Assembly (NCBI RefSeq): GCF_947500065.1
Contig: NZ_CANMQT010000005.1
Location: 186,001-250,000 of the forward strand
Direction: 5' to 3'
Length of the DNA stretch: 64,000 nt
From: an uncultured Aquimarina sp.
GTDB lineage: Bacteria > Bacteroidota > Bacteroidia > Flavobacteriales > Flavobacteriaceae
The notes under the pieces are model-generated. The model had not been told where the DNA came from, did no database searches, and saw only the letters and a list, made by a program, of their open reading frames with translations. The position numbers and the translations under genes were made by a program. Positions 16,194 through 32,909 of the stretch are shown here, in pieces. The number at the start of each line of letters is the position of its first letter. The stretch's first letter is position 1.

Positions 16194-16329
16194 AGCTGCC
16201 ACTAGTTTGCACCACAAACCGATGTTAGACAACATAAAAAAACAACCATAAGAATACAAAAATTTATGGTTGTTATATATTCTTAATCTTACTCGTAGTC
16301 GCTAATAATTACAGATTAATGGTAGCGTG
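16194..16329. repeat. MITE-like element with internal stem-loop
   Basis: The copy has a shortened left end (CTGCCACTAGTTTGCACCAC), the family interior ATGTTAGACAACATAAAAAA, and a right end running to ATGGTAGCG. The interior contains a perfect 10-base stem, ACAACCATAA / TTATGGTTGT (about 16242-16273), just 3' of the minus-strand gene ending at 16382, so it may also act as a terminator. The rest of 16007-16381 has no gene. Confidence 0.6.
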
Positions 16330-21010: not shown

Positions 21011-21574
21011 TCAGAAAATGAAATAACCAATTGATACCTGAAATACTCCATTTTTGCTTTTACCTGAAATACCATCTGTATTATTAATGTTAGTTAGCCC
21101 AAGATTATATCGTACACTAAAATTGATCCCGTTATCAAATTTATAACCTAAACCAAAATTCACTCCAAAATCTGTTGTTTTAAAACGATCTTTATAATCT
21201 TGGGTACCTCCTTTAGTAGAAAGTAAAAAACCCACTTGAGGTCCTGCTTCTATACTCAATCCTTTGGTCACATAATATTTTGATATTAATGGAACATTTA
21301 GATAGTTGAGTGCTATAATACCCTCAGATTCCACACTTGAACCAAATCCTTGTCCGGAATACATTAATTCTGGTTGCAAAGAGAATTTGTCTGAAATTTT
21401 AATTTCAGCCATAACTCCCAGATTAAAATCTGTTGTCCAGCCGATTTCAGAATTGTTCCCTCCTGTAAGTGTTGCGAAATTAAGACCTCCTTTTACTCCT
21501 AAGTTAAAATCTTGTGCATTAACATTTGATAATCCCAAAACTGTTATCACAGTTATTAATACTACTTTTTTCAT
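21011..21574 (-). CDS. Outer-membrane beta-barrel protein (PorT-like)
   Basis: A 187-residue protein with a clear signal peptide (MKKVVLITVITVLGLSNVNAQ) and an eight-strand barrel pattern: LGVKGGLNFATLTG at the start, alternating hydrophobic strands such as FSLQPELMYSGQGFG and LSIEAGPQVGFLLSTKGG, and a C-terminal aromatic end IGYFIF. This matches the PorT/OMP_b-brl_2 group common in Bacteroidota; precise function is unknown. It is next to a membrane-bound AraC regulator transcribed in the same direction, 95 bases upstream, which probably controls it. Confidence 0.88.
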   Translation of the reverse strand: MKKVVLITVITVLGLSNVNAQDFNLGVKGGLNFATLTGGNNSEIGWTTDFNLGVMAEIKISDKFSLQPELMYSGQGFGSSVESEGIIALNYLNVPLISKYYVTKGLSIEAGPQVGFLLSTKGGTQDYKDRFKTTDFGVNFGLGYKFDNGINFSVRYNLGLTNINNTDGISGKSKNGVFQVSIGYFIF

Positions 21575-22770: not shown

Positions 22771-23037
22771 TTTGTTAGAAAATTAAGTGCAAACAGTTTT
22801 TTAATATGAGTTTTTTACCATGAACTCATCTTCACTTTGTTCAATTATTTTATAAGTAACTGTATTGTTGTACCGCTTGTTGCAAAATTTGTAGAAAGAA
22901 GTAAGCCAAGAGACTTTGGATTAAGGGTTAAAAAATAACCATGCGTAAACAAGATTTACTACTCTTTTCTATGTTTACTTACGAGCTCGGGCGGAGACTA
23001 GCGGTACGGTGAGACAAACAAATGATCTCGATACCAA
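22771..23037. other. Intergenic stretch leading into a repeat island
   Basis: No gene is seen. GTAAACA (about 22945) and TGTTTAC (about 22974) form a weak inversion. Near 22990 a piece of the MITE-like right end appears (GACTAGCGGTACGG), and a first ATCTCGATAC arm occurs at 23025-23034. Confidence 0.4.
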
Positions 23038-23268
23038 TACCGTCACGTCGAGTGATTCCGATGGTAATCGGAATTGTACTTCGACAAGCTCAGCAGAACT
23101 ATCGAGACGCAGTACAAGACGAAAAGCCAATAGGTGACAAACAAAATGATCTCGATACATTTTTCTTCTGTCATCTCGAGCCTTTCGACAGGCTCAAGAC
23201 AGGCTTCGTCGAGAGAACATTTCAGAAAAACACTCGATCTAACGGATGTACTAAAAACTGGATCTGAA
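23038..23268. repeat. Long direct repeat, left copy, beside the GIY-YIG gene
   Basis: About 208 of these bases recur at 23753-23960, with a 23-base extra segment here (about 23075-23097). The unit contains the hairpin ATTCCGAT-ggta-ATCGGAAT, the arms TATCGAGA / TCTCGATA (23100-23107 / 23150-23157), and a second hairpin around GAGCCTTTCGACAGGCTC. The near-identity of the two copies implies a recent duplication or gene conversion. Confidence 0.8.
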
Positions 23269-23314
23269 CCTTCATCGTCTCATCGAGTGATTTTTGTATA
23301 GCGATAGCGGCGCA

Positions 23315-23689
23315 AAAAATGTATCGAGATGCAATACAAGACAATAGTAACAAACCAAAAGTCTATATTTATAATATGAAATTATCTCACGTCTATATTT
23401 TGAAATGCGCGGATGACTCCTATTATACTGGTGTAACTTCAAATCTTAGTAAACGATTATTCCAGCATCAGTCTGGTTTTTATATAGATTGCTATACTTA
23501 TAACAGGAGACCTATGGAATTAGTCTATAGTTCTGAATTCACCGATATTCAGTTAGCAATTGATACTGAAAAACAAATTAAGAAATGGTCAAGGGCTAAA
23601 AAAGAAGCTTTGATTAATGGAGCGTATGACAAGTTACCTAATTTAGCCAAAAAGAAATTTCAACAATAAAATGATCTCGATACATTTTT
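23315..23689 (+). mobile_element. Repeat unit carrying a GIY-YIG nuclease gene between inverted arms
   Basis: AAAAATGTATCGAGAT at 23315-23330 and ATCTCGATACATTTTT at 23674-23689 are perfect 16-base inverted repeats enclosing the GIY-YIG gene; the right arm starts four bases after its stop. The empty units nearby have the same arms about 40 bases apart with the interior ATGCAGTACAAAACGAAAAG. The left part of that interior is still present here (ATGCAATACAAGAC), so the gene replaces or fills the middle of the unit. Mobility is inferred, not shown. Confidence 0.55.
23376..23669 (+). CDS. Small GIY-YIG nuclease (UPF0213/YhbQ type)
   Basis: A 97-residue protein consisting of one GIY-YIG domain. 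The two signature strands read HVYILKCADDSYYTGVTSNL (residues 5-24), followed by the conserved Arg (SKRLFQHQ) and a helix EKQIKKWSRAKKEALI. The ATG at 23376 is chosen over the one at 23319, which lies inside the flanking repeat arm. Relatives of this size are putative DNA endonucleases of unknown role. The gene sits exactly inside a dispersed repeat unit and between two long direct repeats. This suggests the nuclease acts on, or spreads with, these repeats. Confidence 0.88.
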   Translation: MKLSHVYILKCADDSYYTGVTSNLSKRLFQHQSGFYIDCYTYNRRPMELVYSSEFTDIQLAIDTEKQIKKWSRAKKEALINGAYDKLPNLAKKKFQQ

Positions 23690-23752
23690 CTTGCATTACA
23701 TTCCAGAAAAACACTCGATCTGACGGACGTGTTGAAATTAGATCGATGCCAC

Positions 23753-23960
23753 TACCGTCACGTCGAGTGATTCCGATGATAATCGGAATTGTATCGAGAT
23801 GCAGTACAAAACGAAAAGCCAATAGGTGACAAACAAAATGATCTCGATACATTTTTCTTCTGTCATCTCGAGCCTTTCGACAGGCTCAAGACAGGCTTAG
23901 TCGAGAGAACACTTCAGAAAAACACTCGATCTGACGGACGTACTAAAAACTGGATCTGAA
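23753..23960. repeat. Long direct repeat, right copy, beside the GIY-YIG gene
   Basis: This matches 23038-23268 apart from the 23-base segment missing here. It contains perfect arms GTATCGAGAT (23791-23800) and ATCTCGATAC (23841-23850). Short minus-strand open frames beginning MYRDHFVCHLLAF occur in both copies, but they follow from the repeat and are not called as genes. Confidence 0.8.
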
Positions 23961-23963
23961 TCT

Positions 23964-24098
23964 GTCACTACAACTAGTGTGCATCACAAACCTATGTTAG
24001 ACAACATAAAAAACAATTATAATATACAAAAATTTATGGCTGTTATATATTCTTACTCGAAGTCGCCACTAATTACAAACTAATAGAAATCTGGGGGG
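23964..24098. repeat. MITE-like element
   Basis: Same interior as the copies at 16194 and 25948 (ATGTTAGACAACATAAAAAA, then ATACAAAAATTTATGG). The left end is worn (CAACTAGTGTGCATCAC) and the right end is GTCGCCACTAATTACAAACT. It ends six bases before the boundary core of the lipoprotein cassette at 24105. Confidence 0.65.
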
Positions 24099-24116
24099 TA
24101 TCGTGTTATATAGTAT

Positions 24117-24722
24117 TCATTTTATTTTATGATAATAGCATTGATAATGATTGTCTTTAGCATCTCCAAAAACTAATAATATGGCTCCTGAGTTATGATG
24201 TGCTATTTCAGCAACCAAATTATCCTTTAAATCCCTAGTTAATCTTACTTTATTAACTTCTATTCCACCAAATATATAAGGAATTCCGCCAATCATTGTG
24301 TTTTTATTTTTTAAATATAAATACCCTTCTCTCAGCTCATATTTAATTATTCGTTCGTTAAATTTTTTATTATTAGTTAAATATTCAAATTTAATTTCCC
24401 CATCATTAATAACATTTATTTTAAAAGAAAAATTACTTAAATTATTCTTATTCAGGGTGTCTTTTTTATTATCTCGATCTCGATCCAAAATTTGAAAAAA
24501 ATTATTATAACTAGGGTAATGATTGTTCATAATAGAGTCTTTCGATCTTGCTATGATACTGTATTCCCCATTTAACTCTTTTATATTTTCTGAAGTCAGA
24601 AAAGAAGGAGTTAAAAATACTGGGTTTTGATATTGGTATGAAAAAGATGCACAATTACTAAGAGATATTATAATCAAAAAGAGTGCTAGGTATATAAAAA
24701 GCTTATTAACTATTATTTTCAT
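24117..24722 (-). CDS. Lipoprotein of unknown function in a cassette-like unit
   Basis: A 201-residue protein with a lipoprotein signal (LFLIIISLSNC, lipobox LSNC). The mature part is polar, with beta-type strands such as NGEYSIIARS and LREGYLYLKNKNTMIGG, resembling no family I know. It is enclosed by GTTATATAGTATTC (24105-24118) and its exact complement GAATACTATATAAC (24733-24746). That is the end arrangement expected of an integron-type cassette read on the minus strand. Very AT-rich. Confidence 0.7.
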   Translation of the reverse strand: MKIIVNKLFIYLALFLIIISLSNCASFSYQYQNPVFLTPSFLTSENIKELNGEYSIIARSKDSIMNNHYPSYNNFFQILDRDRDNKKDTLNKNNLSNFSFKINVINDGEIKFEYLTNNKKFNERIIKYELREGYLYLKNKNTMIGGIPYIFGGIEVNKVRLTRDLKDNLVAEIAHHNSGAILLVFGDAKDNHYQCYYHKIK

Positions 24723-24740
24723 TATTTAATTCGAATACTA

Positions 24741-24793
24741 TATAACGTTCGGTATAAGCGGTCGTTTTAATGCCGTTTATATGTTGTTGTAAG
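24741..24793 (-). other. attC-like recombination site (imperfect hairpin)
   Basis: On the plus strand TATAACG (24741-24747) and GTTGTAAG (24786-24793) form the ends. Internal arms GGTATAAGCGG and GCCGTTTATAT pair imperfectly around a spacer GTTTTAAT. The outer cores belong to different neighbours: GTTATAT to the lipoprotein unit and CTTACAAC to the 24811 gene, as in arrays of integron cassettes. Confidence 0.5.
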
Positions 24794-24810
24794 TTTTTTT
24801 ATGGTTATAT

Positions 24811-25263
24811 CTAAAGGTAAATCACTTTGTCGGGTGGTGTTGGGATGTTTTTGTCTAGGAGTTCGTTATAATAATTGTCAAGCCCCTCAACTAAGGTAGC
24901 TCCTTGTTTAATTAGAAATGGAGATAACTTTTTAAAGTAATCTTCACTTTGCTCAAAAATAGTTTCTATTCGTCTCTTAATCTCTATAACTTCATCATTG
25001 GTAATATTCTCCACTTTTTGAGGCGATGGTAAGGAAATATCAAATGCTAAATCCTCAATACTAGTATATCCCCAATATTCATATAAATCATCTTTGGAAA
25101 TTGACTTACCAGTTAATTCATTCAATTGATTAACAGTAGTATCCATTAAGTCCTCATCACCCTGGTCAAAAGCACTATCAAATTTTGAGATAAGAGATAA
25201 AATCTCTGTAAATAATTCCTCTGCTCTTTCAATATTTGGCTCTAGTTCAGTCCTTAGTTTCAT
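24811..25263 (-). CDS. Unknown helical protein in a cassette-like unit
   Basis: The start is the ATG at 25263 (MKLRTELEPNIERAEELFTE). The 150-residue product is acidic, soluble and mostly helical, without signal or membrane segments; I recognise no domain. GTTGTAAG (24786-24793) downstream and its complement CTTACAAC (25292-25299) upstream mark cassette-type ends. Small orphan genes with no family are typical cargo of such cassettes. Confidence 0.68.
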   Translation of the reverse strand: MKLRTELEPNIERAEELFTEILSLISKFDSAFDQGDEDLMDTTVNQLNELTGKSISKDDLYEYWGYTSIEDLAFDISLPSPQKVENITNDEVIEIKRRIETIFEQSEDYFKKLSPFLIKQGATLVEGLDNYYNELLDKNIPTPPDKVIYL

Positions 25264-25290
25264 TTTTGCATTTAATATGTTGAGAAAATT

Positions 25291-25378
25291 GCTTACAACA
25301 TACAAATATAGTTACTATTACACATAATACCGTTTGTAAGTAATTATAAGCAATTATAAACGAATCATACTACAACTC
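25291..25378. repeat. Relative of the hairpin region at 30805-30892
   Basis: TATAGTTACTATTA (25307-25320) and the following ATACCGTTTGTAA, AAGCAATTATAAACGAAT and ATACTA blocks align with 30819-30892. The two cassette upstream flanks thus share an ancestral attC-like site. Confidence 0.5.
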
Positions 25379-25420
25379 CCTCGCAGCAACTAGTTTACAA
25401 CCAGTGTGCACCACAAACCA
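25379..25420. repeat. MITE-like element fragment (left end)
   Basis: GCAACTAGTTTACAACCAGT followed by GTGCACCACAAACCA matches the left end of the element at 25948. The rest is missing. Confidence 0.5.
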
Positions 25421-25426
25421 TTGACG

Positions 25427-25447
25427 GCACGAGCGAGACGCTCGTGC
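25427..25447. terminator. GC-rich hairpin, possible terminator
   Basis: GCACGAGCG and CGCTCGTGC form a perfect 9-base stem with an AGA loop, striking in this AT-rich region. It lies 22 bases after the stop of the minus-strand gene at 25469. There is no strong T-run on that side. Confidence 0.45.
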
Positions 25448-25468
25448 TAGCCTTTTGATTAGCCTTTA

Positions 25469-25837
25469 TTAGCTATAATATTTTAATAGGTTTTTATTTT
25501 TTTCAAAATAATTATGCACTGTTCTGTTGTCCAGTAAAAAGAACGGGATTTCCATATATTTCCAAATTAAAAGTTCAAATTCTTCCTTTAAAAATAAAGA
25601 AGAATTTATATTTTTTATTTCACTTAATAAAAACTCACTGAGTTGATTTTGATCAGGATTATTATTGAGAAAATCTTTTAATTGATTCATCAAAATGGAG
25701 AATTGTTCGGTTAACCATTCAGTTTTATGAGGTCGCGGGCATTTTTCACCATCTCTTCCACCAAAATCATAATCAGTAAAATGGACAGATGATTCTAACT
25801 TACTTTCAATCTTTTTAATTATTGGTTCGTATCTCAT
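25469..25837 (-). CDS. Unknown small soluble protein
   Basis: A 122-residue protein without signal peptide or membrane segment. The N-terminal part carries a Gly/Cys-containing stretch (YDFGGRDGEKCPRPHKTEWL), and the remainder is helical and ends NKNLLKYYS. No family is recognised. It lies between two MITE-like repeats in the cassette region, on the same strand as its neighbours, but I did not find the matched boundary cores seen around the other genes. Confidence 0.6.
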   Translation of the reverse strand: MRYEPIIKKIESKLESSVHFTDYDFGGRDGEKCPRPHKTEWLTEQFSILMNQLKDFLNNNPDQNQLSEFLLSEIKNINSSLFLKEEFELLIWKYMEIPFFLLDNRTVHNYFEKNKNLLKYYS

Positions 25838-25947
25838 ATATAATTACATCTAAGGTTTAATATATGTGTCGTAGCAGAGTAAAATGTTATTGTGTTTTTG
25901 AATTTATTTATCAATACCCGTTGTAGATAGTTTAGAATTAGTGTGCA

Positions 25948-26104
25948 CCCGCTGCCGCTAGTTTGCAACTAGTGTGCACCACAAACCTATGTTAGACAAC
26001 ATAAAAAACAATTATAATATACAAAAATTTATGGCTGTTATATATATTCTTACTCTTACTCCCATTCATAGTCGCCACTAGTCACAGACTAGCGGTAGCG
26101 GGGG
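25948..26104. repeat. MITE-like element, best-preserved copy
   Basis: The left end (CCGCTGCCGCTAGTTTGCAA then CTAGTGTGCACC) and the right end (GTCGCCACTAGTCACAGACT then AGCGGTAGCGG) are inverted repeats of about 28 bases. Each end also folds on its own through CTAGT/ACTAG arms. It encodes nothing. No transposase is nearby, so any movement would depend on a factor encoded elsewhere. Confidence 0.7.
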
Positions 26105-26142
26105 TTTTGTTTTTTCTTTGATTACATACTGTTTATGGTGCG

Positions 26143-26236
26143 AAGTCACAGACATTCGCACAGCACTTTCCTTTTTTGTTCACTCTTCGGAGAGCTGGGA
26201 GTTACAAACTTCGCAGAGCTGGATACATTGTTATGC
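26143..26236 (-). other. Incomplete attC-like region after the SMC/Cap4 pair
   Basis: The core GTTATGC (26230-26236) lies ten bases from the stop codon of the ATPase gene, and its complement GCATAAC lies upstream of the pair at 29095-29101. Beyond it come GTGCGAA/TTCGCAC arms (about 26148-26172), but no distal core. The element at 25948-26104 may have replaced it. Confidence 0.4.
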
Positions 26237-26245
26237 GCTCGCTTT

Positions 26246-27958
26246 TTATTCTATTAATTCCAGAGTTTCTTTTTTAATTTGTTCAAACTCTTTCTTAAAA
26301 TCAGAAAGAAAAGCTCTTTTCTCAAGCGTGTTTATTTTAATTAACTTGCCAGTAGAACTAAAGTGTTCTTTGTTATAGTTAATAGCTGTTTTCTTATTCT
26401 CTTTTGATTCAGCAAGAGAAAAAATAAGCTGTGTGTCTTTAGGATAATGTTTGTAAATAAAGTCAAGAATTAATTTTTTATTGTCTTCGTCGACATCTTC
26501 CTTAAATATTGCGTCCATTACGAATGGCAATCTGTGGACATATGCAGTTCTTTTAATAATAGTATTAAATGAAAAATAATAAGCCAACAAAGTCTTTAAT
26601 AATTCAACACCTTGTTGTGGAAATAATTTATTATTATAAAGACTGTAATCATCTTTAAATATTTTCACTTTAAGTTCTTTTAAATTCGAACGGAAAAGGT
26701 TAGAAAAACTAATCTCAATTTTATTACGTTCACTCTTTATCTCTTCATTAGTTTTAAATTTTGCTAATTCTTCAATTATCCCTCTTAATTCTATTTCGAT
26801 TTCACCGATTTGACTTATTATTTTATTTGATAGACTTACATTAACTTTATTATCTAGCCATGTACTTACGCTTAAGTTGTCAATTTGATAATCTTTTAAA
26901 ATCGAATATTTTTCATTAATCAGAGTTCTTAATTCATTAATGTCTTTTTTCAATGAATTTAGGAGCCCAGTCTTTTTACTTATTTCTTTTTTATTAGTTT
27001 TAAGCTGTTCTTTAGTATCATCAACATCTTGATAATACTCATATACTTTTTCGATAGAGTTAGGCAGAGATTGTTTACATGTAGGACAACTGTCTTTAAG
27101 TGGCTTTTCTTCGCTGATATTTCTATTTACCGCTAGAAGTACTTTACGGTGTTCTTCTAAAAGTTTAATTTTATTACATAATACTAAATATTCTTTTTCG
27201 TTTTGAATTAAAGTGTTTTTTTCATTTTTATACTGCTCTATATATTCAGCAGACTTATTTAAAAAAGCTTCATCTTTAAGTTTAGATAGGTGTAATTCGT
27301 CTTTTCCTTTTTCCGTTTTGTATAGAAATTTTATATCATTTTCAAGTCTTTGTTTTTCAGCTTCAAGTCTTTGTTTTTCCTCTCTATCATACTTATTATT
27401 AATACCTAAATAATAATCATAGTAATCAAATTTGAAATTTCGAAAATAATCCAATCCTCTGAAGGATTTAAGTGTTAATACCCAGCCATAATCCTGAGCA
27501 ACATAATATGGTAAAAACATTGATTCTATAGAACCAAGTTTATAATCTCCTTTACTTTCAAGAAATAAGTTAAAACCGAATAATTCCGCAAGATATTTTT
27601 TTAATTGCTTATGTTCTTCTGACTTATTTCCATTTATACCTAAAAATTTTTTAATAGGAATTCCTTTTCGGATTATGAAAATGAAATCAGTATCACGTAT
27701 AATTGTAATATTTTCTATTGATATTTTTTTTATTTGAAAATCAAGTCTAAAAATAACATTTTCAGAAAGAACTTCACTTAGTTTATGGTTTTCATCATTG
27801 ATGCCAAATGTGTAGTTGATTGCTTGTATTAAAGTACTTTTACCTGATGTGTTTTTTCCATAGATAATATTAATATTATCATTAAACTCAGTGTGGAAAT
27901 ATTTATTATGCTCTTCTGAATAGGCAAAAAAACGATTATATTTTATATGTGTTTTCAT
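26246..27958 (-). CDS. Rad50/SMC-like ATPase with zinc hook (Lamassu LmuB-like)
   Basis: A 570-residue ATPase: Walker A GKNTSGKST (about 35-42) at the N-terminus, coiled coil from about 190, a CPTC zinc-hook motif (C291/C294), a second coiled coil to about 410, and a C-terminal half with LPFVMDAIFKED (477-488) at the Walker B position. The usual acidic residue after Walker B Asp is Ala here. The ABC signature is weak (around QQGVELLKTLLA). Such a short SMC protein next to a Cap4-type nuclease is the LmuA/LmuB arrangement of Lamassu anti-phage systems, where the SMC partner senses foreign DNA ends. Eight bases separate the two genes. No LmuC was found. Confidence 0.8.
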   Translation of the reverse strand: MKTHIKYNRFFAYSEEHNKYFHTEFNDNINIIYGKNTSGKSTLIQAINYTFGINDENHKLSEVLSENVIFRLDFQIKKISIENITIIRDTDFIFIIRKGIPIKKFLGINGNKSEEHKQLKKYLAELFGFNLFLESKGDYKLGSIESMFLPYYVAQDYGWVLTLKSFRGLDYFRNFKFDYYDYYLGINNKYDREEKQRLEAEKQRLENDIKFLYKTEKGKDELHLSKLKDEAFLNKSAEYIEQYKNEKNTLIQNEKEYLVLCNKIKLLEEHRKVLLAVNRNISEEKPLKDSCPTCKQSLPNSIEKVYEYYQDVDDTKEQLKTNKKEISKKTGLLNSLKKDINELRTLINEKYSILKDYQIDNLSVSTWLDNKVNVSLSNKIISQIGEIEIELRGIIEELAKFKTNEEIKSERNKIEISFSNLFRSNLKELKVKIFKDDYSLYNNKLFPQQGVELLKTLLAYYFSFNTIIKRTAYVHRLPFVMDAIFKEDVDEDNKKLILDFIYKHYPKDTQLIFSLAESKENKKTAINYNKEHFSSTGKLIKINTLEKRAFLSDFKKEFEQIKKETLELIE

Positions 27959-27966
27959 TTAATTTT

Positions 27967-29049
27967 TTAATGTTTATAATTGACTTCATAAAAAGCAGCA
28001 AAGACAATAGCTTTAAATTCTATTTCTCCCAAATGTGTAGAATCTGTTTTTGAAAACATAGATACTAATTCAGCTACGTTTTCTTCATCTGAATATGTGA
28101 TACAATTCGAGACATTTAATTTAACAAATTCTAAAATTTTTCTATGCTCAGCCTCACTATAGGATTTAAAAAAGTCAAATGCAGTATCAAAAGCAAACTC
28201 AAATGTTTCACGTTCTGCAGGTTTTATTTTTAGAACTTTTGAAACTTCTCTTTTTTGTGAACGCCAATAGTCAAAACATTTAGATTTACTTGTCAACAAA
28301 TCAAATGTTTCCTCAATTTCCGTAGAGGAAATTCGTTTTTTTTCATCAAGTAAATCTGCTTTGTCCTTTTGATTATAAATATATTCAACATCATTAAAAA
28401 GCTTTATTATAGTGTTTAATGCAGCTCTCGGATTATATATCTGTGAATTAAAAACTTTATCTATTTGACCTACGAGTTCATTTTCTTGTTTCTCAACAGT
28501 ATTATTTATATCTAGCCAAATAAATTTCAAGTGTTCTAGTTGTGTTGTTAAATCAATGTCATCAACACCTTCAGTGATTTTCTGTTTTATAGAGTCGTCA
28601 AGTTCTTTGAATTTAACCAAAGTATTATTGGCTTTAATAGATTCTGAAGCCTTTATTTTTTTCTTATTTTTTTCATAAACTTTCAAATTAATTGTTTGAT
28701 TTGTGGAAAAAAACAAAACATGTTTATAATCTTTAGATTTTACTATTTTATCGTCAAGAAGTGATTTACCTGTTTTAAGAAGTTTTTTTATGATAGTTAT
28801 TAGATTAATGTCTAATTCCCATGAGCTTGGTGCCTTTTTTTTTGATTGATATGCCTCAATAATTTCAGCTTCATCATTTTTATTAAGAAAACAAAAGAGA
28901 AAATCATCATGATGTTCTAAACATATGAAATATTTCTTTTCTTTGAATTTGTTATGGTACTCCTCAAGTAAAAGGTACAATGCAGAATTTCTTTGTAAAG
29001 CAAATCCTGTCTGAGCATCAACACCCGCATTAGTAGATTTATCAGTCAT
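27967..29049 (-). CDS. Cap4-type (DUF4297) nuclease, Lamassu LmuA-like effector
   Basis: A 360-residue protein beginning with the DUF4297 pattern AQTGFALQRNSALYLLL (about residues 12-28). The PD-(D/E)xK core follows as HHDDFLF (D48/D49) and EAYQSKK (E65, Q68, K70). The remaining 250 residues are helical and probably bind the ATPase partner. Such nucleases degrade DNA when their sensor is activated. The gene is first of the pair, immediately before the SMC-like ATPase gene, which favours a Lamassu-type defence system over HerA- or helicase-linked DUF4297 systems. Cassette-type cores enclose the pair. Confidence 0.8.
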   Translation of the reverse strand: MTDKSTNAGVDAQTGFALQRNSALYLLLEEYHNKFKEKKYFICLEHHDDFLFCFLNKNDEAEIIEAYQSKKKAPSSWELDINLITIIKKLLKTGKSLLDDKIVKSKDYKHVLFFSTNQTINLKVYEKNKKKIKASESIKANNTLVKFKELDDSIKQKITEGVDDIDLTTQLEHLKFIWLDINNTVEKQENELVGQIDKVFNSQIYNPRAALNTIIKLFNDVEYIYNQKDKADLLDEKKRISSTEIEETFDLLTSKSKCFDYWRSQKREVSKVLKIKPAERETFEFAFDTAFDFFKSYSEAEHRKILEFVKLNVSNCITYSDEENVAELVSMFSKTDSTHLGEIEFKAIVFAAFYEVNYKH

Positions 29050-29094
29050 TATTCATTGTTTGTCTTATTTTGCAGGTTTCTCTTTCAAACTGGC

Positions 29095-29288
29095 GCATAA
29101 CGTTAAATATATGGCAAGTTGGGCAGAAAATAAGCGATTAATTTCGGTTTAACCACAAGCCAAATCTTTTTATTTTGTTTTAATTTTTTCTCTTTAATAC
29201 CAAATCAAAAGATTTGGCGACTTTGCAAATAGACAGTAACCTTTGGATTAAACACTAATCGCCCAATTTGCTATATATAGTGTTAGGC
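29095..29288 (-). other. attC-like recombination site, long hairpin
   Basis: Plus-strand ends are GCATAAC (29095-29101) and GTTAGGC (29282-29288). Next to them AAATATATGGCAAGTTGGGC and GCCCAATTTGCTATATATAG pair imperfectly, and an inner stem GCCAAATCTTTT (29159-29170) / AAAAGATTTGGC (29207-29218) is perfect. At about 194 bases it is longer than usual integron attC sites. Each outer core matches a different neighbouring cassette. Confidence 0.5.
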
Positions 29289-30779
29289 TTAGTTATTTTT
29301 CGCAACTTTAAATCCAATTGGAAAATCAACTTTTGAAAAATTGTTTATTTCCATATCAAAGTTTGTAGCTAATACCACCTTATTAATTGGAACTAAACTT
29401 ATCTGAGCTATTTTTGTTTTTAAACCTGCAAACTGCATTGTTTCGTAAAATATTTCCTCGCCAGAATTGAAAAAACTGTTTTCAGAGTCCTTAAATAGAA
29501 CAGATTTAATTTCGTGTTTTATGTCAGTTACTCTATAAATAGGAACTCCATTTTTTTTTTGTTTCTCAAAAATAACATCAAAATTTACTGTTTGGTTTTT
29601 AGAGTTTGGTATGTAAAGCATATTCTCTCTAAAGATTTCTAACTGTTCTTCGATGAAATCGTAAGATTTGCTAAAGACATCATTTCCACTTAAAGCACTT
29701 AATGAAGGTAAATGCCAAGTTTTTATATATTTACCTCTAAAAACACCATCTGAATTGAAGTAAGTTTCAAAAAGTAATCCATTTAAAACGTGATTTTCTC
29801 CATCTTTGTTGAACTGATTTAATCTATTTGCTAAATCTTCCATAAAATATCCAGCATCATTTTCTCCTCCATTAGCTGTTTGTAAAATATTTCTACCTAA
29901 AATAAATAATTCTGTATCGTTGTAATCATTCACATTTAATTCAGGTATTCTCGATATAGCTGGACTTTGAACATACCAATTAGAAGTTTTCAATTCTTTT
30001 ACGATGTCAATTAATGCGTTATTATCACTTAATTCAAAATTTTTATCTGCGATAGCATCATCTGGATATGGTGCATTAGTAGTTTGAACAAGTTGACCAG
30101 AGTTGAAAATAAATGTTCCAGTAAGAGAAGTGTGTTCCCAAGAAGTTTGTTTTCCATTTGAGAATGTGTAAACGGAATTCCTTACTCTTTTAAAGAACTC
30201 TTCAACTGTTATGTTTTTATCTTCGATATGTTTGAGCAGAGCAGTAGTGTAAAGTCCATTGTCTCCAGCACCATCTTTTGCTCTTTCTCCTGGTGATGTT
30301 GCGTACGCAATCAAAGTTCCTTTTGGTGCATACATTGGTGCCAGTCCTTGAAGTGCTAGACTCCTGTCCCAACTTTTTTCAAATGGATTATCCCTGCAAG
30401 CATCTAAAATGACAATATTTGTTTCATTACTTGCTCTTTCCATATATGCAAGCACTTTATTTAATGTGATTGAGCTATATTTTGCGGAAACTTCAGTATC
30501 AAAATTGGTGTTTGTTACTGTCATAAAATTATCTCCATCAATTTGCATTCCGTGACCAGCAAAATAAAAAAGTCCAACATCATAGTCGTTCAGTTTTTTA
30601 CCGAATTCGTCAATTTCGGAATCCAAATCTTGCTGATTTGTGTCCGTAACACATTTAACAATGTAGCCAAGTCTGTTTAAAACATCGGCAAAGTCTTTTG
30701 CATCATTAATCGGATTTTTTAGATTATTTTCAGACTTTTCATAGTTGGCGTTCCCAATTATTAATGCTAATCCTTTCAT
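29289..30779 (-). CDS. Caspase-like (peptidase C14) protein with unknown C-terminal domain
   Basis: A 496-residue cytoplasmic protein. Residues 1-230 form a caspase/metacaspase p20-p10-type domain: the start LALIIGNANY, the catalytic His in FYFAGHGMQ (H76), the catalytic Cys in ILDACRDNPF (C128), and TLIAYATSPG further on. The last 250 residues match no family I know and may bind the activator or substrate. Bacterial caspase-like proteins are used in several abortive-infection systems, and this one sits beside a Lamassu-like pair. It has its own cassette ends (GTTAGGCTTA at 29282-29291 and TAAGCCTAAC at 30802-30811), so it may have arrived separately. Confidence 0.85.
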   Translation of the reverse strand: MKGLALIIGNANYEKSENNLKNPINDAKDFADVLNRLGYIVKCVTDTNQQDLDSEIDEFGKKLNDYDVGLFYFAGHGMQIDGDNFMTVTNTNFDTEVSAKYSSITLNKVLAYMERASNETNIVILDACRDNPFEKSWDRSLALQGLAPMYAPKGTLIAYATSPGERAKDGAGDNGLYTTALLKHIEDKNITVEEFFKRVRNSVYTFSNGKQTSWEHTSLTGTFIFNSGQLVQTTNAPYPDDAIADKNFELSDNNALIDIVKELKTSNWYVQSPAISRIPELNVNDYNDTELFILGRNILQTANGGENDAGYFMEDLANRLNQFNKDGENHVLNGLLFETYFNSDGVFRGKYIKTWHLPSLSALSGNDVFSKSYDFIEEQLEIFRENMLYIPNSKNQTVNFDVIFEKQKKNGVPIYRVTDIKHEIKSVLFKDSENSFFNSGEEIFYETMQFAGLKTKIAQISLVPINKVVLATNFDMEINNFSKVDFPIGFKVAKNN

Positions 30780-30804
30780 TTTATCGATGTTCTTTTATAA
30801 TTAA

Positions 30805-30892
30805 GCCTAACATGAGAGTATAGTTACTATTATAAATAGCTAGTACCATTTGTAATTGATTACAAACACTTACAAGCGATTGATACTATACT
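30805..30892 (-). other. attC-like hairpin upstream of the caspase-like gene
   Basis: It begins with core GCCTAAC (30805-30811). AGTATAGT (30817-30824) and ACTATACT (30885-30892) pair, and TTTGTAA-ttga-TTACAAA (30849-30866) forms a central stem. The region is related to 25291-25378. No clear distal core is seen. Confidence 0.45.
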
Positions 30893-31139
30893 TCCCTTTT
30901 GTTTTATAAAGCTCTAAAAATAACGTAAAATTCCCCATATTACAAAATGATGTGGGTTCTTTTATAGATTGGTTGGTGTTTTGTGTGGTCTCTCGACTCC
31001 GCTCGAGATGACAGTACTTGGGCGGTTTATCGTGACAAGTAAGTTTTCTTTCATCGAATTGATACGTTTTGATTAAAAACCCTATTCTCGATAAATCCGC
31101 CCGAGGCTGACACTCGAATTGACGGGTTTTTAATAAAGT
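30893..31139. terminator. Intergenic hairpins downstream of the BatA-type operon
   Basis: ATTAAAAACCC (31072-31082) and GGGTTTTTAAT (31124-31134) are exact complements ending six bases before the stop codon of the operon's last gene. Inside lies GGGCGGTTTATCG (31020-31032) against CGATAAATCCGCCC (31089-31102), a near-perfect match. A TCGA-rich repeat-family piece occurs at about 30990-31010. These nested stems probably end the minus-strand operon; no gene is present. Confidence 0.45.
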
Positions 31140-32909
31140 TTACTCCTTTTCGATTTTAGGAGCTAGCCATAGATATCCGATACACACTAGAAATAGGATA
31201 TAGAATCCAATGGGATTTATGGGTGCTAAAGGAGAAAATTGTTTTGTGTTTTTTATAGAAGCTCTATCAAAGTGTCTGCGGTTTCTTAGTATGTCATCAT
31301 ACGCTGATTTTGCTTTCCATGTGCTGGTATCCGTTACAAAATAATCCAACACAGCGGTGGTGTCTTGTGCGACAGATATCCTATTCCAGCCTAATTTCTT
31401 AGGGTAGGTTTTACCTAGCCATAGATTTGACATATCAATATCGTTGCGAAGTGCAATGCGATATCCTTCATCCGTTGTTACTTCAGGTTCAGGAATAGCG
31501 GTTCTTAGTGTAAACTCATAAGATTGGTCTTTTATAGCCAGGATATTATGTGCATCCCAACTCACGGCAGCGCTTTCTTTTTTACCGATTGCACTTATAA
31601 TCTCAGACCACACTTGTTGGTACTCGGTTGTTTTGCCATTCAATAATAATTCATAGGTGCTTTGTAAAACTGTAGTACTTACTTTACCCTTTCCGAGATG
31701 TTTATAGGCAGATACAATATCGCTTGTACCATTTTTATGTATCACTTGTAACTGAAATTGATCTTTAAACAAAAAAGGATACTTTGCTATTTTAGTTTTT
31801 GGAGCAGTACCCAGACTTGTTTCGGTACTTTTTTCTTTTACAAAATCGAAAGCTACCTCATCTTTTCTATATCTAAAAAAATCTTCATCGGGTTGGATAA
31901 AAAGTCCTAGTCCATGCTGTTTGATAGCGTTCGTAAGAGCAGTTCGTGAACTCCGCCCTAAGTTCTTTGCTGTAGTAGCATCTAGGATGACCAAATCAAA
32001 AGGCTGTAAATTCTTTTCAGAAAAAGCACCTATCGGTATTCGATCTGTATTAAAATACTCGAACTTAAATCTACCTTTTGTGATCCTACTTTTTACCACC
32101 ACCTCATGCCCATTTTCAGCAACATAGTTTTTAAGGTATTTGGTTTCAAAAGTTGGAAAACTATTGACTATCAATATTTTCAAATGGGTACGATCGATCA
32201 CCGTAATAGGGATGGGATCACGAGCATATATAGTTCCTAGAGAATCTTTTTCGACTAATGAAAAATTATAATTACCAATTACCTTAAGATCCGCAGATAA
32301 TCGAAAGGATTGCTTTGTTTCGGATAACAGCGCAATAGAATCTATAGCGTTTCCGCCTGGTTCTTCCAAAATCAGATGATTTCCTTTCTTAGGATTATTG
32401 TATATCCCTTCTATATATAACTGCTCTCCTACTACTCTTTTCTTATCATATCTAAACTTAATAACTCCTGATGGAGCATCACTTTTTATATACCTAACTT
32501 CATAGTTCTTTAATTGCCAAAAATCAAAAGGCGCGATTCCTTCTCCCAATACAAAAACAGTATCCGACGTATGTATATTTCTAAAAATTGGCTGATTCGC
32601 TTTGTACTCAACTGTCTTTAGTCTTTTATGAACTTTCTGTAGACTATCTAATTGATCCTCAATATAATTAGTAGTGAGTATGGCAACCTTCGTTTTTTTG
32701 CCAAGTATGGGTAAAGCTGGCTGTAATGCAATGCATGCAAGCGCACTGATTGCGATACCTGCTATTGTTATTTTTATCCAGAATCGACCTTTCCCAAAAT
32801 CAGACCCTTCTTTCCAAATAAAGATGCACCATAGCACTATAGCACTAATAGCTATTGGCACTATCCAATTACTATGTAAAAAAGTGATGTTTTCAATCAT
32901 TAATTTCAA
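31140..32909 (-). CDS. Large membrane protein of the BatA/MoxR operon
   Basis: A 589-residue protein with two N-terminal transmembrane helices (about 14-31 and 43-63), a large periplasmic region, and one C-terminal helix (about 566-582). The middle region (HLKILIVNSFPTFETKYLKN, PFDLVILDA) has alternating strands and helices like a glutamine-amidotransferase-type Rossmann domain, common in this operon type, but without visible catalytic Cys. Last gene of the DUF4159-MoxR-DUF58-BatA operon, overlapping its neighbour by 17 bases. Probable role is in an envelope complex with BatA-type partners; no activity is known. Confidence 0.72.
   Translation of the reverse strand: MKLMIENITFLHSNWIVPIAISAIVLWCIFIWKEGSDFGKGRFWIKITIAGIAISALACIALQPALPILGKKTKVAILTTNYIEDQLDSLQKVHKRLKTVEYKANQPIFRNIHTSDTVFVLGEGIAPFDFWQLKNYEVRYIKSDAPSGVIKFRYDKKRVVGEQLYIEGIYNNPKKGNHLILEEPGGNAIDSIALLSETKQSFRLSADLKVIGNYNFSLVEKDSLGTIYARDPIPITVIDRTHLKILIVNSFPTFETKYLKNYVAENGHEVVVKSRITKGRFKFEYFNTDRIPIGAFSEKNLQPFDLVILDATTAKNLGRSSRTALTNAIKQHGLGLFIQPDEDFFRYRKDEVAFDFVKEKSTETSLGTAPKTKIAKYPFLFKDQFQLQVIHKNGTSDIVSAYKHLGKGKVSTTVLQSTYELLLNGKTTEYQQVWSEIISAIGKKESAAVSWDAHNILAIKDQSYEFTLRTAIPEPEVTTDEGYRIALRNDIDMSNLWLGKTYPKKLGWNRISVAQDTTAVLDYFVTDTSTWKAKSAYDDILRNRRHFDRASIKNTKQFSPLAPINPIGFYILFLVCIGYLWLAPKIEKE

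Follow-up and report, generated by a model that had tools for sequence, protein, structure and literature searches.

Two integron-like cassette arrays in an Aquimarina genome and a XerA-like recombinase that may serve them in trans

We analysed a 64,000-nucleotide (nt) stretch of the genome of an uncultured Aquimarina sp. (contig NZ_CANMQT010000005.1, positions 186,001 to 250,000; hereafter the window), in which a preliminary description had placed an array of integron-like gene cassettes. The window very probably holds two cassette arrays of a Bacteroidota integron system; the enzyme most likely to act in trans on their attI-like sites is a XerA-like tyrosine recombinase whose gene lies on contig 16 of this genome. 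In the proposed mechanism, each cassette would carry its own core of 8-14 nt at both ends, together with a recombination site, attC, whose arms fold into a hairpin, and cassettes would enter at the G|TT of an attI site. The contig 16 recombinase, of 379 amino acids (aa), would most likely act in trans on the attI-like sites of the window, which have no integrase gene; it belongs to a XerA-like lineage of Bacteroidota, and its gene points the same way as the cassettes and is followed at once by a palindromic attI. The architecture, the matched cores, the covarying arms, the breakpoints at GTT and the linkage of recombinase, attI and array can all be read directly from the sequences compared. 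From these we infer that the enzyme carries out the recombination, uses attC as a folded single strand and serves the window sites in trans. By architecture, the system is an integron in these sequence tests, yet it is not a classical IntI integron, and its recombinase fails the defining IntI test.

In a wider sense, and with less assurance, it seems likely that Bacteroidota have an integron class of their own, with a XerA-like integrase in whose ancestry the IntI domain was never gained, hairpin attC sites, arrays of superintegron size, a presence in most Flavobacteriaceae genera, trans use of integrase-free attI sites and a part in the unexplained homology-free uptake route of some flavobacteria. 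The cassette system sits in bacteria with few reported integrons, and the finding is larger than the preliminary description supposed.

Two tandem mini-arrays, each behind an attI-like block

The list of open reading frames (ORFs) bears out that the six ORFs of the array at 24117-30779 all lie on the minus strand. Four core pairs had been described as differing among units and matching within each, and all were exact (4/4) at the positions below. The cassette reading with attC-like hairpins stood up to a position weight matrix (PWM), a covariance model (CM) and a swap at GTT across four genomes. The single array did not survive: there are two mini-arrays in tandem, and each of them follows an attI-like block of its own. 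The description of the genes as cassette units holds for the four core-paired units and fails for the gene at 25469-25837, which has no matched core pair. The elements are listed in array order, with expect values given as E.

30812-30895, minus strand: attI-like docking site without an integrase gene; it ends ...GTAACTATACTCTCAT|GTT, and the block conserved across genomes extends to about 30966
29282-30811, minus strand: cassette 1, caspase, ORF 29289-30779; core GTTAGGCTTA / TAAGCCTAAC; Peptidase_C14 match, 8e-40
29099-29284, minus strand: attC of the 180-nt class; PWM score 36.6; CM E=0.005 for 29099-29179
26230-29101, minus strand: cassette 2, LmuA (27967-29049) and LmuB (26246-27958), a Lamassu-type defence pair; core GTTATGCGC / GCGCATAAC
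25840-25905, minus strand: apparent right half of an attC of the 157-nt class, with CTT instead of GTT, directly upstream of ORF 25469-25837
25469-25837, minus strand: ORF of a presumed degenerate cassette whose matched 3' core is absent (ORF list, genome comparison)
25300-25381, minus strand: second attI-like block; 75% identity to the first block, E 1e-7
24786-25299, minus strand: cassette 3, ORF 24811-25305 (first start codon); core GTTGTAAG / CTTACAAC
24744-24788, minus strand: attC of the 39-nt class, loop CATTAAAACG; PWM score 23.9; CM E=4e-4
24105-24746, minus strand: cassette 4, ORF 24117-24722; core GTTATATAGTATTC / GAATACTATATAAC

The true start of ORF 24811-25305 probably falls within cassette 3. 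The half-attC at 25840-25905 has matches in several genomes of the genus, and the CM returns it only at E 9.6 (25852-25896). The coding part of ORF 25469-25837 is 88% identical to a copy on contig C2 of genome G018, beside which cassette ends were not seen. We rejected 25469-25837 as an intact cassette, given the lack of a matched core pair and the CTT in place of GTT in the half-attC upstream.

The docking site at the orthologous locus

The gene on the right flank and an adjoining block of ~150 nt are conserved in three other genomes of the genus, G018, G006 and G014. In all three, the attI-like block is conserved, with some differences, up to the GTT, beyond which lie unrelated cassettes. 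The first cassette encodes the caspase in the window, a 217-aa protein in G018 and a Crp-like regulator (named by eye) in G006; in G014 the product is a protein of 846 aa, and further genes lie behind its ORF. In each of the four genomes (4/4), the first cassette has its own matched core, 10 nt long in the window and G018 and 9 nt in G006 and G014. Conservation ends at the GTT and different cassettes follow, which makes the block a docking site with no integrase next to it. Breakpoints at G|TT in close strains had been put forward as a mark of single cassettes, and in these three genomes the array changes exactly at GTT. The orphan block also shares GTAACTATA..TGTT with the attI behind the integrase of its own genome.

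The palindrome of attI differs between species, as seen in the DNA behind the stop codon at clade A loci (defined below), and the orphan site in G018, G006 and G014 retains a TAACTATAC-type end despite the other palindromes of the resident integrases. In G014 (L227, 11864-17313), the ORFs behind the docking site encode a methylase/HD-type protein of 846 aa, an OLD-nuclease-like protein of 582 aa and a restriction-endonuclease-like protein of 284 aa (all by eye).

A recombinase gene linked to attI and cassette chains

The best match to the IntI model TIGR02249 in the host genome is the 379-aa tyrosine recombinase on contig 16. Its stop codon is followed by an inverted repeat, CAATT|GTT and then an array of nine cassettes, which runs on the recombinase strand up to the contig end, each cassette with an 8-10-nt core and its exact complement. 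A cassette of 852 nt occurs twice in identical form, joined once to attI and once to attC, both times at GTT. Further attC sites lie on contigs C5, C15, C17 and C28 (L230, L232-L234) and, weakly, on C24 (L231), most of them close to the end of a contig; contig 28, of 4.6 kb, forms a single array with at least five attC sites. The main integron of this genome has probably been split by the assembly.

Homologues of the recombinase at E 1e-60 or better were found in 26/56 related genomes and in 82/199 genomes of the family, with identities of 46-86% within the genus. They fall into two identity bands: clade A, at 53-63% outside the genus, with an attI visible behind the stop codon in most, and clade B, at about 35-49%. 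Across many genera, attI and cassettes start within about 30-115 nt of the recombinase stop codon. At 47/55 loci, the top-scoring inverted repeat downstream of the gene stops 2-8 nt short of a GTT; it is mostly 18-28 bp long, and it scores above the shuffled 95% point at 37/55 loci, as against 1/47 control stretches. The DNA behind the stop codon, the inverted repeats and the breakpoints at the orphan site all indicate an attI beside the integrase gene with insertion at G|TT, as in a classical integron.

Chains of cassettes were followed from attI under strict settings (a core of at least 9, a stem of at least 12). At the 31 clade A loci of 5 kb or more, 24 gave chains, of up to 18 cassettes, compared with 0/93 shuffled sequences; among 13 clade B loci, the strict chain lengths were 11, 7, 4, 4, 3, 2, 2 and 1. 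We prefer the strict 31-locus count to a chaining of 41 stretches, some later links of which are doubtful: 34 of these stretches gave one or more cassettes, five none, one had no GTT and one, a contig of 386 bases, no integrase. Chains stand directly behind the gene in Winogradskyella ursingii, Seonamhaeicola aphaedonensis and Aequorivita sinensis. With the weight matrix at a cut-off of 17, sites were found on the recombinase strand at 13 of 28 loci (clades A and B, the host's own included) and at none on the other strand. Among the best 80 of at least 590 relatives, 11 loci have sites, all labelled Bacteroidota and all on the recombinase strand; at L147, in the same set, an attC site lies upstream of the recombinase gene.

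The strongest rival, which we nonetheless hold to be unlikely, is that the arrays are real and are moved by another enzyme, such as the host XerC/XerD, with the linked recombinase a mere passenger. The linked recombinase is itself Xer-like, and the attI palindromes resemble dif in shape; this likeness of shape is all that they share with Xer dif-type mobile modules (pdif), in which dif-like sites of XerC/XerD flank a gene. The close and recurrent spacing of attI and cassettes behind this very gene, in many genera, speaks against a passenger, as does the placement of the host's own XerC/XerD-like genes (L003, L004), which lie on other contigs and outside the clade.

Plasmid-borne versions of the system probably exist. 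Clade B recombinases on plasmid 1 of Rufibacter tibetensis (L283) and on a plasmid of Chryseobacterium sp. SNU WT5 (L281) each have one link behind an attI-like site, a result that arises in controls too; the Rufibacter plasmid carries two attC sites of 54 nt. On pHH1107 (L280, FJ012881.1, 4043-6064), a truncated relative annotated TnpF, with 52% identity to the recombinase over 231 C-terminal residues, lies directly upstream of tet(X3), and the matches listed place this same match on other plasmids too, mostly of Acinetobacter. The status of tet(X3) as a cassette found no support, as PWM, chain and core searches gave no attC or matched core. One attC searched by BLAST against plasmids gave no match.

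The recombinase groups outside IntI

The preliminary description had looked to an IntI-type tyrosine recombinase elsewhere in the genome. None exceeds the TIGR02249 cut-off in the host genome (6.57 Mb, 69 contigs), and the candidate we found has no IntI-specific domain and groups outside IntI. It scores 184 bits on TIGR02249 against a cut-off of 265, with the match split at model position 178, the site of the extra domain of IntI. Its best model is XerA (NF040815), at 215 bits against a cut-off of 220, a model on which the G230 homologue scores 239. Aligned to IntI4, the recombinase has 26 residues where IntI4 has 68, and 0/26 aligned relatives have an insert at the position of the IntI-specific domain. 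The predicted structure (predicted local distance difference test, 82; predicted template-modelling score, 0.50, which leaves the domain arrangement unsure) has no helix between 287 and 305, and XerA and IntI4 rank top in a Foldseek search with it. All 26 members compared keep R238, K263, H328, R331, H354 and Y363, residues with catalytic roles in tyrosine recombinases.

In a tree of 134 rows, a quick build with several long branches and with IntI rows all from the GTDB phylum of the window, 12 classical IntI rows lie inside a 17-row clade (support 100). The 54 clade A rows and 27 others form a clade of 81 rows (support 94), in which every row that carries a label belongs to Bacteroidota; L164, one further Bacteroidota row, is placed elsewhere. 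Some members carry the NCBI name 'site-specific tyrosine recombinase/integron integrase', the description of the XerA-like model NF040815, which as we read it is no evidence of an integron. The recombinase gave no match when searched against phages.

We also considered an ordinary integron remnant, a cluster of attC sites lacking an integron-integrase (CALIN), moved by a classical IntI that is now lost or elsewhere. The layout, cores and hairpins do resemble classical cassettes, and a classical IntI over the cut-off occurs in 105/395 genomes of the phylum. The lack of such an IntI in the host genome and the non-IntI recombinases directly in front of attI and cassette chains both tell against it. 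The distributions disagree as well: IntI at E 1e-60 or better is present in 107 genomes of the phylum, of which a single one shares the host's class and none its order or family, and the attC model described below matches most genomes of the family. This rival is quite improbable, and we rejected classical IntI as the agent.

attC sites come in discrete length classes and have covarying arms

The 166 attC sites collected measure, from AAC to GTT, 36-41, 50-55, 62-72, 111-124, 156-162 or 176-187 nt, with outliers at 93, 228 and 234. The lengths are quantised across genera, at about 40, 54, 62, 118, 157 and 182 nt, and the commonest class is about 118 nt plus cores. In the preliminary description, the cores departed from GTTRRRY by a base or so; the departure is real and is better stated as a rule. 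Across 167 cassette starts, on all of which the search imposed GTT, 163 carry a purine at position 4, 162 an A at position 11 and 139 a T at position 12. A purine stands at position 5 in 59 and at position 6 in 89, and a pyrimidine at position 7 in 70. The classical GTTRRRY / RYYYAAC core is therefore not kept: positions 5-9 vary, and core self-complementarity holds.

In 49 distinct sites, which are part of 61 thinned references (77 before thinning), the proposed arms are paired in 92.9% of cells, against 69.9% with partners shuffled, figures that are inflated, as the 166 sites had been admitted by a stem score of 10 or more. The covariation score is 0.496, compared with 0.113 for shuffled partners and at most 0.103 for partners slid along. 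Changes on both sides occur in 10/13 pairs (shuffled mean 7.8; 13/500 shuffles as high), a weak excess, and the 21 further pair types are not above shuffles (19.2; 115/500 as high). Because this first set was preselected for pairing, the arms were retested on sites found by the weight matrix alone. In genome G069, the fit of arms within a site is 11.9, against 7.5 between sites (maximum 8.2 in 200 permutations), and the L-box 6-mer is exactly complemented in the other arm at 53/54 sites, compared with 19.5 (maximum 26) when permuted. Six other loci, with 4-11 sites each, were compared in this way: five score above all permutations, and L156, which has four sites, does not. Arms whose structure is conserved, as in classical attC hairpins, are thus present, and their covariation would be the signature of attC sites used as folded single strands. 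Covariation and the duplicated cassettes bear only indirectly on whether an integrase recombines attC through its folded bottom strand, as in classical integrons.

G069, whose clade B recombinase is 38% identical to that of the host, also has a large array: 55 weight-matrix attC sites in about 65 kb on one strand, and none on the other. Between neighbouring sites, 49/54 cassettes have a match of 8 or more to their own core, as against 4% of random pairs. A covariance model of the 118-nt class at E 0.01, in a scan that scored 29 candidates per genome, matched 106/120 genomes of the family (one genome per genus), 0/8 non-Bacteroidota genomes and at least 25 places in the host genome.

The cores and hairpins might instead be termini of transposons, of miniature inverted-repeat transposable elements or of repetitive extragenic palindromic (REP) elements in a locus rich in repeats (172-nt, 80-nt and REP-like). 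We rejected this very improbable origin, against which stand cores that are unit-specific yet matched within each unit, arms that covary, strict head-to-tail chains behind the recombinase and the swap at one locus exactly at GTT.

The window sites rank first under models from other genomes

We counted, on the minus strand between 24001 and 31000, the GTT cores whose exact complement recurs downstream, and compared the numbers with 50 Markov shuffles: 24 of 8 nt (shuffle mean 11.6, maximum 19), 14 of 9 nt (3.7, 8), 4 of 10 nt (1.4, 5) and 1 of 14 nt (0.02, 1). The core pairs by themselves are thus weak evidence, exceeding chance only modestly in AT-rich DNA. A crude rule of core plus hairpin gave 36 matches on the minus strand of the window and 73 on the plus strand, many of them false links. 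Of the two hairpins previously described, the long one (29085-29295) folds with an energy above that of shuffled sequence (z -3.4), and the short one (24733-24799) does not (z +0.4 and -0.3 on the two strands).

The weight matrix was trained on 144/166 attC sites, all from other genomes, with the host's own array and lengths outside the main classes dropped. Over the 64-kb window, it ranks 29099-29284 first (36.6) and 24744-24788 second (23.9); the next score is 14.0, and the best among 20 shuffled windows (one strand each) is 19.9. It also recovers 9/9 sites of the contig 16 array (18.0-31.0). The covariance model, built from attC sites of other genomes with the host genome excluded, places 24744-24788 first (E 4e-4) and 29099-29179 second (E 0.005), followed by a second partial match in the same long site (0.43) and then by values of 1.6 and above. 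Both sites that had been proposed as attC are therefore top-ranked in the window. A near-identical copy of the long site stands in an integrase-linked array of G014 (L087), and similar sites are widespread among the other genomes of the genus; the host itself has them on five further contigs and at another position of the contig that holds the window. The loop of the short site, CATTAAAACG, is found in short attC sites of L094, L105 and G014 as well. Chance matches in AT-rich DNA, which the modest excess of short cores and the frequent firing of core-plus-hairpin rules might suggest, are a negligible explanation that we rejected, because the two sites claimed as attC are precisely those that models from other genomes place at the top of the 64 kb.

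Weighing the evidence

Several observations count against a trans-served integron system in the window. Recombination was deduced from sequence, and none was observed. No complete attC was recognised after the last cassette of either window array. The attI palindromes of the resident integrases in G018, G006 and G014 are unlike the GTAACTATA of the orphan site, so the integrase that served those three loci may not be the resident one. On contig 16, the site scores overlap the best shuffled score of 19.9, with 3/9 below it.

The chains have gaps too. At 7/31 clade A loci, the GTT chosen as attI does not begin a strict chain, and random non-boundary GTTs gave a link in 13/310. In clade B, no chain was found at 3/13 loci, one of them interrupted by a contig end, and L268 and L271 gave one weak link each under a looser setting only (L268 has five weight-matrix sites). 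From 200 random starts came 184 zeros and 16 ones, none longer, so a single strict link in clade B matches the control. In G069, strict chaining that sets out behind the recombinase gene stops at 11, and no attI was identified in the 65-kb array.

Relation to known systems

The system resembles the classical integron (IntI, attI, attC) in its insertion at the G|TT of attI, in head-to-tail cassettes with self-matched cores and in attC hairpins with conserved arms; it also shares with it ORFs mostly in one orientation, large chromosomal arrays and defence genes among the cargo. It differs in that the recombinase has no IntI-specific domain and belongs to a separate Bacteroidota lineage, the integrase is oriented as its cassettes, attI carries a palindrome, the cores are mostly 8-10 nt and not GTTRRRY, and attC lengths fall into discrete classes. 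As in a CALIN, no integrase lies beside the window arrays; unlike a CALIN, these have attI-like sites, one of which is conserved in four genomes with other cassettes in each. The same genome also encodes a candidate recombinase in trans. XerA/Xer proteins provide the closest model (NCBIfam NF040815) and solved structure (PDB 5hxy), but the recombinase here has about 110 residues before the SAM-like domain and adjoins attI and cassettes.

In PMC9668308, the IntI-specific domain is treated as defining and as necessary for integron recombination. Bacteroidota are named among the phyla with integrons in PMC8618304 and PMC9668308, and the Bacteroidetes/Chlorobi group among intI holders in PMC2426708. 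The IntegronFinder 2.0 paper (PMC9024848) names one complete integron for Bacteroidetes proper, in Salinibacter ruber, and PMC4792948 discusses a transition of Xer-type recombinases to folded single-stranded sites. A search that left out bioRxiv and most subscription papers found no published account of integrons of this kind in Flavobacteriaceae, nor of any that use an integrase of this sort.

If the system works as proposed, integron-type gene capture either arose with, or tolerates, an enzyme without the IntI-specific domain, and the handling of folded single-stranded sites by a Xer-type recombinase becomes directly testable. A large reservoir of cassette genes would become accessible as well, among them many whose function is unknown and some that act in phage defence. 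Riemerella anatipestifer is a member of Flavobacteriales. In this species, PMC13148043 describes a homology-free insertion of a gene with 27 bp before it and 140 bp after it; the latter folds attC-like, and the authors there give the mechanism as not yet known and name no recombinase. The dimensions of the unit fit the cassettes here (ORFs starting at a median of 26 nt after GTT; attC of about 118 nt plus cores), and our system might then explain homology-independent gene uptake in a flavobacterium.

Cargo

The cargo had been described as a defence pair, a caspase and orphan genes, and the family searches agree. LmuA (5e-118) and LmuB (1e-209) lie side by side with strong PADLOC matches, as expected of Lamassu; unlike Lamassu, cassette 2 lacks a third gene. 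The caspase is the Peptidase_C14 match of cassette 1, and the other three ORFs of the window gave no confident family, with a sub-threshold Imm6 match and a weak PbeC match for ORF 24811-25305.

Elsewhere, 160 distinct cassettes have a median length of 710 nt; the longest ORF lies on the same strand in 138 and on the opposite strand in 10, and 12 have none of 60 aa or more. The longest ORFs thus run along the array in 138/148, starting at the median of 26 nt after GTT given above. These are cassettes of one or few ORFs in one orientation. A scan of 129/148 cassette ORFs from other arrays found 66 Pfam families, the commonest with 4 members; among the matches listed, defence-type cargo includes SLATT-associated reverse transcriptase partners, AbiEii, methylases, BpuJI and a CAP12-type TIR.

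Neighbouring features

Both window arrays terminate near copies of an 80-nt repeat, and the locus is bordered by two conserved genes.

31140-32909, minus strand: conserved right flank gene; relatives adjoin the attI-like block in G018, G006 and G014
25966-26045, plus strand: 80-nt repeat past the last cassette of the caspase/Lmu array; relatives in G014 near the same locus
23971-24050, plus strand: 80-nt repeat past the last cassette of the second array; 99% identical to the copy at 25966-26045
21011-21574, minus strand: left flank gene, likewise conserved, whose product looks like an outer-membrane beta-barrel (by eye); in L225 and L227, relatives lie at the other side of the locus

No tRNA that might serve as an insertion target was found in the window by a tRNA search, and no Rfam family reached its gathering score there. 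A further, diverged copy of the array-end repeat (81-83%) lies at 16197-16327, and G014 has five matches to this repeat near the same locus (contig C3, 133608 to 141722). At 22975-23963, two copies of a 172-nt repeat (96%) and shorter, REP-like repeats surround a GIY-YIG-like ORF (23319-23669, named by eye).

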